Source of the DNA: a virus | IMG/VR virus record: IMGVR_UViG_3300026458_000070 | Coordinates: 1-23,488 of that record | Direction: 5' to 3' (one strand) | DNA length: 23,488 nt | Part shown: in pieces, positions 11,095 through 18,453 of the stretch | Layout: each line of letters starts with the position of its first letter | Numbering within the stretch: the stretch's first letter is position 1 | Translations under genes and position numbers: made by a program | The notes under the pieces: generated by a model | Database searches by the model: none | What the model was told of the DNA's origin: nothing | The model's input: only the letters and a program-made list of their open reading frames with translations

Positions 11095-11820
11095 ATGGAT
11101 TTATTTAAAAAAGACGCATCAATTGAAACAGAAAAAGACACACTAGGTGGTGGTGGTTTTGTATGGGATACAGGACTTTATGACGTTGCAATTGACTCAG
11201 TATACATGGACCAATCTAAAGGTGGTGCTTACTCACTAAACTTCGTATTCAAAACTGCTGATGGTAGAGAATTAAGAAATACTCAATATGTTACTTCTGG
11301 TGCTGCAAAAGGTACAAGAAATTACTATGAAAAAGATGGTAAGAAACACTACCTACCTGGCTTTACTGCTGCAAATGATATTGCCGTAGCTGCTACTGGT
11401 AAAGAACTTTCTGCTCTTGAGAGGGAAGATAAAATTGTAGAGATTTATGATTTTGACCTTAAGAAAAAAGTACCAGCTACTAAGCCAGTATTCATGGAAA
11501 TGATTGGTAAAACTTTTAAACTTGGTGTTCAAAAAGTTAAAGAGTACAAAAATGTAAAAAATGGTGCTGGTGACTATGTACCTGGTAATGAAATTAAAGA
11601 GTTTAATGAAGTTGCTAAGTCATTTAACAATGATGGTCTTACTTCTGTTGAAGCAAAAGCTGGGGCAACAGAACCAGAATTTGTTAACAAATGGTTAGAA
11701 AGAAATGGTGCTGACTTTATTAAAGACAAAACTAAAGGTGTAACTCCTGCCGCTGGTGGTGGAACATCTGGAATGCCTGCTGCAGGTACTGGTGCTGCTC
11801 CTTCATTATTTAATAAGTAA
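11095..11820 (+). CDS. Probable single-stranded DNA-binding protein (N4 gp45 class)
   Basis: A 241-residue protein with an AAAAGGAAA site before ATG 11095. The N-terminal 120 residues alternate beta-strand and glycine-rich loop (GGGGFVWDTGLYDVAIDSVYM, AYSLNFVFKTADGRE), as expected for an OB fold. The C-terminal 40 residues are flexible, rich in Ala, Gly, Pro and Thr, and end in APSLFNK rather than the acidic tip of bacterial SSB. Charge, length, tail and its place between a Sak4-like ATPase and a RusA-like gene all suit a phage SSB. N4 SSB also lies just upstream of the convergent virion RNA polymerase and activates late transcription. No motif proves the fold, so the call depends on context and composition. 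Confidence 0.6.
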   Translation: MDLFKKDASIETEKDTLGGGGFVWDTGLYDVAIDSVYMDQSKGGAYSLNFVFKTADGRELRNTQYVTSGAAKGTRNYYEKDGKKHYLPGFTAANDIAVAATGKELSALEREDKIVEIYDFDLKKKVPATKPVFMEMIGKTFKLGVQKVKEYKNVKNGAGDYVPGNEIKEFNEVAKSFNNDGLTSVEAKAGATEPEFVNKWLERNGADFIKDKTKGVTPAAGGGTSGMPAAGTGAAPSLFNK

Positions 11821-17703: not shown

Positions 17704-17779
17704 TACGATATAGCTCAGTTGGTAGAGCGTCTGGCTGTTAACCAGAATGTCCCAGGTTCGAGTCCTGCTATCCCATCCA
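17704..17779 (+). tRNA. tRNA-Asn(GUU), with mismatched acceptor stem
   Basis: The cloverleaf is clear in three arms. The D stem is GCTC/GAGC. The anticodon stem is TCTGG/CCAGA around loop CTGTTAA, anticodon GTT at 17737-17739. The T loop is TTCGAGT. CCA is encoded at 17777-17779. The acceptor stem is poor: 5' TACGATA against 3' TATCCCA leaves A2-C71 and C3-C70 unpaired, and the T stem has a C-C pair at 49-65. The discriminator is T rather than the usual G for Asn. It may be decayed or need partner changes; it is at least a recognisable tRNA-Asn. Confidence 0.72.
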
Positions 17780-17836
17780 TTTAACCCCTCAAAGCAATTT
17801 ATAGCGATGTAACTCAGTTGGTAGAGTAATGGATTC

Positions 17837-17865
17837 TTGACTTGTCAGTCTAAAGATACTATAAT
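17837..17865 (+). promoter_or_regulatory. Sigma70 promoter at the very start of the tRNA-Trp insertion
   Basis: TTGACT (17837-17842) begins at the first inserted base; a 17-nt spacer and perfect TATAAT (17860-17865) follow. Transcription would start near 17872, leaving only about 12 nt before the HNH ATG. The insertion therefore brings its own expression signal. Confidence 0.8.
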
Positions 17866-17883
17866 GGTGTCAAAGGATTAATA

Positions 17884-18273
17884 ATGAAAAAAAGAATGCT
17901 AACGGATGAACAACTATATATAGAGAATTCTACAACAGCAAGGTCTGTAGTTAGAAGGCGAATACTATATGATAATCTCATAGAGTACAAATGCTCAATA
18001 TGTAGTTCAGAACCAAAATGGAGAGGTCAGGATATGTCATTAATTTTGGACCATGAAAATGGAATAAACAATGACCATAGACTCACAAATCTTAGGTTCT
18101 TATGTCCAAACTGTAATCATCAACAACCAACGTATGCTGGTAAAAACAAACGTAAAACTGATGAGAAGAAATGCGTAGACTGTAATAAGACTATTCATAA
18201 AAACTCAATTAGATGTAATGGATGTTCTGCTAAGAAAAAACATGCAGATGGTTTGATGAGCTATAGTAATTAG
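17884..18273 (+). CDS. HNH endonuclease inside the tRNA-Trp gene
   Basis: A 129-residue protein, six bases after AAAGGA. The core is a zinc-supported HNH nuclease: C37-x2-C40 (CSIC), the L-x-LDHENG motif with D56-H57, then LTNLRFLCPNCNHQQPTYAGKN with N69, C74 and C77. A second zinc-finger pair follows, C97-x2-C100 and C111-x2-C114. The layout is that of small phage HNH homing endonucleases. It is unrelated in domain make-up to the NUMOD-type enzyme of the polymerase intron. The stop codon TAG supplies the last three bases of the insertion, so gene and insertion boundary coincide. Expected target: the uninterrupted tRNA-Trp anticodon region of related phages or hosts. Confidence 0.9.
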   Translation: MKKRMLTDEQLYIENSTTARSVVRRRILYDNLIEYKCSICSSEPKWRGQDMSLILDHENGINNDHRLTNLRFLCPNCNHQQPTYAGKNKRKTDEKKCVDCNKTIHKNSIRCNGCSAKKKHADGLMSYSN

Positions 18274-18335
18274 CAAATCCATAAGTCGTTGGTTCAAGTC
18301 CAGCCATCGTTGCCATCCCAAAACAAGGTAAAACT

Positions 18336-18443
18336 ATGTTAGCTTTATTTACACCTGGCAAGATTAAAATTGCTGTGAATGTATTAATTCTTGTAGGAAG
18401 TATCCTATATGAAATTAATGCCCAAAGATATAAGGGGGCATAA
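18336..18443 (+). CDS. Small single-pass membrane peptide
   Basis: A 35-residue frame starts at ATG 18336 after AAGG and ends at TAA 18441-18443, just before the convergent terminator. Residues 10-27 (IKIAVNVLILVGSILYEI) are hydrophobic enough for one membrane helix, with a short polar tail ending in RYKGA. No family can be named. The region downstream of a split tRNA is otherwise empty, and the frame is short, so a chance reading frame remains possible. Confidence 0.45.
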   Translation: MLALFTPGKIKIAVNVLILVGSILYEINAQRYKGA

Positions 18444-18453
18444 AGCCCTCTTT
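18434..18453. terminator. Bidirectional terminator between convergent units
   Basis: GGGGGC (18434-18439), loop ATAAA and GCCCTC (18445-18450) form a six-base-pair stem (one G-U). TTT follows on the plus strand and an A/T-rich run lies on the other side for leftward transcription. It overlaps the last codons of both converging genes. Confidence 0.68.

Follow-up and report, generated by a model that had tools for sequence, protein, structure and literature searches.

An HNH endonuclease gene in the anticodon of a phage tRNA-Trp: a probable homing insertion without an intron

The IMG/VR virus record IMGVR_UViG_3300026458_000070, analysed here over a whole stretch of 23,488 nucleotides (nt; positions 1 to 23,488, hereafter the window), carries a transfer RNA (tRNA) gene for tryptophan whose anticodon is interrupted by a gene encoding an HNH endonuclease (17803-18315). 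The same interruption is found in a diverged phage, represented by a 78.7-kb viral contig (L003), and relatives of the window carry an uninterrupted tRNA at the same locus. The most probable interpretation, to which we give a probability of about 0.75, is a bare homing-endonuclease insertion, involving neither an intron nor splicing and most probably leaving the tRNA-Trp inactive.

The split tRNA-Trp gene and its uninterrupted alleles

The two halves lie on the plus strand. The 5' half (17803-17836) comprises the 5' strand of the acceptor stem, the D arm, the 5' strand of the anticodon stem and U32 U33 C34; the 3' half (18274-18315) comprises C35 A36 A37 A38, the 3' strand of the anticodon stem, the variable loop, the T arm, the 3' strand of the acceptor stem, G73 and an encoded CCA end. 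Joined at 17836|18274, they give a 76-nt tRNA-Trp(CCA) in which ARAGORN, run on the joined sequence, finds 21/21 stem pairs. The 437-nt insert (17837-18273) separates C34 from C35 and consists of a 47-nt leader and a coding sequence of 390 nt, whose stop codon directly abuts the 3' half. The first-pass annotation, made from the letters alone, had proposed this clean tRNA, this promoter, leader and gene with nothing after them and a junction after C34 rather than after a U, and direct reading agrees on all of these points: C34 precedes the insert in both the window and L003, and the junction after it is the sole one that provides a 7-nt anticodon loop together with the anticodon CCA. Shifting the junction by one base would give the anticodon GCA (Cys); this was rejected, as L003 fits CCA only and the discriminator base is G. 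On the unjoined sequence, ARAGORN run without introns reports the tRNA-Asn at 17704-17779 alone and misses the split tRNA; run with introns, it recovers the span 17803-18315 with a misplaced junction and an Ala(agc) call.

The locus is framed by the intact tRNA-Asn(GTT) directly upstream (17704-17779, plus strand; Rfam tRNA, 53.7 bits) and by a small conserved open reading frame (MLALFTPGKIKIAVNVLILVGS...; 18337-18444, plus strand), a synteny anchor to three relatives found by a search with the neighbouring virion-type protein: L110 and L112 (about 80% nt identity) and L111. Just before this reading frame, all three relatives carry an uninterrupted 76-nt tRNA, with the anticodon CCA (Trp) in L111 and UCA in L110 and L112. 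None carries only one half, and the earlier reading of an insertion is thus upheld. Compared with these alleles, the window's junction shows neither duplication nor loss of a base, and no HNH homologue was found in the examined records of the three relatives. Furthermore, the window's halves match the relatives, and not L003, in lineage-specific bases of the D arm and variable loop (TAACTC..GAGTA, AAGTC); therefore, the tRNA belongs to the lineage, whereas the cassette came from outside. The UCA tRNA of L110 and L112 (9885-9960, minus strand; C34 replaced by U) has G55 and A73 and scores 67.6 bits as a tRNA; the virion gene of L110, unlike that of L112, has TGA instead of a TCA codon shortly before its end (about 9546).

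In L003, an HNH protein 68% identical to that of the window is encoded inside a tRNA-Trp, again between C34 and C35, and a tRNA-Asn precedes the split gene as it does in the window. The L003 insert starts at its very first base with a promoter-like CTGACT-N16-TATAAT and a single base separates its HNH gene from the 3' half; in both genomes, the insert is therefore a promoter and a gene only. Between the two phages, identity is 29-33% for backbone proteins and 68% for the HNH protein; the HNH gene has therefore most likely moved between phage lineages, and it occupies one and the same site. An intact allele in relatives and the occupation of one site in diverged genomes by a gene more similar than its surroundings are, as far as sequences can tell, the marks of a homing gene. 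The search found no further relatives of the L003 phage; the 5' junction pattern, sought across viral contigs, retrieved the L003 contig and one unrelated coding family and nothing else; and no close homologue was found in genome contigs and plasmids.

The same tRNA, the same position and a homologous gene in L003, together with an uninterrupted locus in the relatives, show that the split is not due to chance. As the contig is metagenomic, an assembly chimera or a fortuitous likeness of the halves might be envisaged; the diverged second case and the exact empty site in three relatives already contradict this explanation, which is very improbable.

The HNH cassette and its family

The HNH gene (17884-18273, plus strand) encodes a 129-amino-acid protein that matches the profile phrog_10822, 'HNH endonuclease', with an E value of 2.4e-30, over the middle (68-185) of its 245 positions; the match to Pfam HNH lies only below the Pfam cut-off. 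Residues C37, C40, D56, H57, N59, G60, N69, C74, N76 and C77 are invariant in 15 relatives of the protein, which belongs by its sequence to this HNH endonuclease family and is predicted to cleave DNA. Between the window and L003 copies of the gene, non-synonymous divergence (dN) is 0.28 and the proportion of synonymous differences (pS) is 0.73, indicating purifying selection on the protein.

The leader begins with a putative promoter, whose -35 box TTGACT (17837-17842; consensus match only) is formed by the first six bases of the insert and is separated by 17 nt from a consensus-like -10 box TATAAT (17860-17865). A Shine-Dalgarno sequence, AAAGGA (17872-17877), and an upstream AGTCT (17847-17851), which is paired in the window's minimum-energy fold, are both conserved in L003. 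AGTCT could base-pair with GGATT (17875-17879), part of the ribosome-binding site and also conserved in L003; both arms are invariant, so that the two copies display no covariation. This pairing could hide the ribosome-binding site in a read-through RNA initiated upstream of the insert and leave it accessible in an RNA started at the internal promoter. The ribosome-binding sites of I-TevI and mobE are likewise hidden in read-through RNA (PMC2988022).

The cleavage site, homing, promoter use and tRNA loss that we infer would combine as follows. A minimal cassette, made of its own promoter, a ribosome-binding site, the 129-codon HNH gene and nothing else, would occupy C34|C35 of tRNA-Trp. During co-infection, the HNH enzyme would cut or nick the intact tRNA-Trp gene of another phage in or close to the anticodon, where the gene is most conserved, and the cassette would then be copied into the cut allele by repair templated on the occupied one. 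As the insertion destroys the target, the carrier would be protected. The cassette, devoid of an intron, would stay unspliced, and the tRNA-Trp gene would be inactive as long as it is occupied.

Homologues of this HNH protein in viral contigs are mostly encoded in tRNA arrays, where their stop codon often overlaps, or lies a few bases from, the start of a complete tRNA gene, commonly one for tRNA-Trp. An uninterrupted tRNA-Trp(CCA) is abutted or overlapped at its 5' end by such a gene in L002, L030, L040, L043, L052, L055, L065, L068, L070, L086 and L089, and other genes of the same family abut tRNA-Leu, -Ser or -Gln. The window gene is not one of these free-standing genes lying between intact tRNAs, since its own tRNA-Trp is split. 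In a tree of the HNH proteins built on 87 columns, in which most forks are weakly supported, the window and L003 proteins pair at 99, and the nearest rows are free-standing genes beside tRNA-Leu, tRNA-Thr and a CUA tRNA (support 84), a weakly supported indication that the nearest kin of the window gene may be free-standing genes located beside tRNAs. A branch of crAss-like phages, whose HNH genes lie inside suppressor tRNAs, is separate (support 100). In three of these phages, inserts of about 1 kb bearing an HNH gene occupy the anticodon of apparent CUA suppressor tRNAs (L087, 2240-3320; L006, 1747-2821; L005, 1722-2772); judged by eye, they look like group I introns, with group I-like R and S elements read in L087 and L006, but Rfam misses them. 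In Enterococcus phage iF6 (L008, 1615-2570), an HNH gene is flanked by tRNA fragments in an ambiguous arrangement. The L003 phage has three further tRNA-like genes (L135, L137 and L138), whose anticodons ARAGORN does not assign.

Intron, other routes to a tRNA, or loss of the tRNA

The first-pass annotation had left three options open: an unusual intron whose core overlaps the coding region, another splicing route or a bare homing-endonuclease insertion, and the evidence favours the last. It had seen no group I core in the tRNA insert and all its motifs in the polymerase intron of the window, and the group I covariance search that it proposed for 17837-18273 bears out this contrast. At E<=10, Rfam yields no group I match in the insert, only tRNA and chance matches, and none in that of L003, versus 37.9 bits for the polymerase intron, with an E value of 9e-8 and short of the gathering score of 50. 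This intron splits the family A DNA polymerase gene (1925-2956) and contains an I-HmuI-like HNH gene (2158-2709). Likewise, a home-made scan for R and S motifs places both tRNA inserts at the level of shuffled sequences and the polymerase intron above all shuffles. The P3-P8 core with its P, Q, R and S elements was thus not found by tests of limited power. Group I introns are preceded by a U and end in G; here the 5' exon ends in C34 in both copies, and the last base of the insert is G in the window and A in L003.

The insert leaves no room for such a core outside the gene. A core hidden in the coding sequence of the HNH protein and in the 47 nt before it, allowing normal splicing as a group I intron, is nevertheless conceivable, although we regard it as unlikely. 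The window insert does end in G, its minimum-energy fold holds the cloverleaf closed across the insert, and relatives of the HNH gene occur inside the group I-like inserts of suppressor tRNAs. However, downstream of the stop codon these intron-like relatives retain some 50-170 nt, whereas the window insert has nothing there; besides the missing covariance and motif matches, the A that ends the L003 insert and the C34 that ends the 5' exon do not fit. Moreover, synonymous sites are saturated (pS 0.73) while dN is 0.28, and therefore no RNA core common to both copies is conserved inside the gene; a consensus structure of the two inserts hardly beats synonymous shuffles, 6% of which are as low, and is not clearly significant. 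The low folding energy of the inserts (z -3.1 and -2.6) was rejected as a sign of RNA structure, since family members that are not inserted behave in the same way against synonymous shuffles.

As no intron is found, the cassette is presumably not spliced out and the tRNA-Trp is probably inactive. In L003, the halves display U2.U71 and U3.U70 mismatches in the acceptor stem and lack C56 and G19, which probably reflects a decaying gene. A functional tRNA-Trp might be produced by another route, either from a read-through transcript cut and then ligated by a repair enzyme, or from nicked halves that assemble as a tRNA in pieces; this seems more doubtful still than a hidden intron. In its favour, both window halves are intact, a cloverleaf can form in the precursor with the insert folded as a single domain, and each of the 11 stem pairs differing from those of L111 is altered on both sides. 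Such compensatory changes were not accepted as proof that the tRNA works, since the halves belong to the lineage and can have acquired them before the cassette arrived. Furthermore, the L003 tRNA is weakened, no RtcB match was found in five phage records and, no bacterial enzyme is known that would cut at these junctions. A search for a T4 Rnl1-type ligase also gave no match, but its controls were equally silent.

Several observations nevertheless weigh against a bare insertion with loss of the tRNA. The window tRNA bears no trace of decay (21/21 pairs and all checked invariants), whereas a computation indicates that six random substitutions leave all stem pairs intact in only 2% of copies; its perfect halves imply that the cassette was inserted recently or that the tRNA is still being produced. 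In L003, G19U and C56A together would preserve a Watson-Crick pair. The negative group I searches are weak, as the R/S scan misses the crAss-like inserts too and the Rfam model misses those of L087 and L006, which are group I-like by eye. Finally, recurrent insertion into an anticodon loop is what group I introns of tRNA genes typically show, and only two copies of a tRNA-Trp split by an HNH gene are known.

Significance and comparison with known systems

When homing genes reside in structural genes, a self-splicing element usually accompanies them and masks the cost that they impose. The window cassette looks like a homing gene that spreads at the cost of breaking a tRNA. A naked gene in the anticodon of two distantly related uncultured phages would mean either that the loss of this tRNA is tolerated, in which case the cost of a bare homing gene becomes measurable, or that the tRNA is produced by an unknown route. 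More broadly, the data point to a large tRNA-focused HNH family in which free-standing, split-gene and probable intron forms exist side by side, a setting that could allow steps of the collaborative-homing model to be tested. As a separate observation, compared with the window, the ribonucleotide reductase small-subunit gene of L110 contains an interruption of about 300 nt (11442-11749, minus strand).

Like the anticodon-loop group I introns that encode an endonuclease, such as that of cyanobacterial tRNA-fMet and probably those of L005, L006 and L087, whose HNH proteins are homologous to that of the window, the cassette is precisely inserted in an anticodon. Unlike them, it has no detected ribozyme core, nothing after the gene, a C instead of a U at the 5' junction and a shorter protein, whose 129 amino acids match the middle of the family profile of 245 positions. 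It shares its neighbourhood with the free-standing endonucleases of tRNA arrays, i.e. SegB of T4/T6 and HegA/F-TflIV of BF23 (PMC13096335), and both neighbourhood and family with the HNH genes abutting tRNA-Trp, -Leu, -Ser and -Gln. Free-standing genes, however, lie between intact tRNAs and their enzymes cut far from the gene, whereas the window gene lies inside its presumed target.

The closest parallels are the mobE gene of Aeh1, located in nrdA, and the mobA gene of T4, located in gene 60, two free-standing HNH genes that split a conserved phage gene without any intron (PMC2988022), and it is by analogy with them that a bare homing gene in an anticodon is proposed. An intron-less split by a homing gene was thus already known for protein genes, whose pieces reassemble, the split NrdA of Aeh1 remaining functional; here, it affects a tRNA, divided in its anticodon, with the same insertion in two diverged phages. 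Enzymes encoded by introns cleave no more than 25 bp from the site of insertion, whereas free-standing enzymes cleave at a great distance (PMC2988022); the HNH gene of the window has the position of the first kind and the construction of the second.
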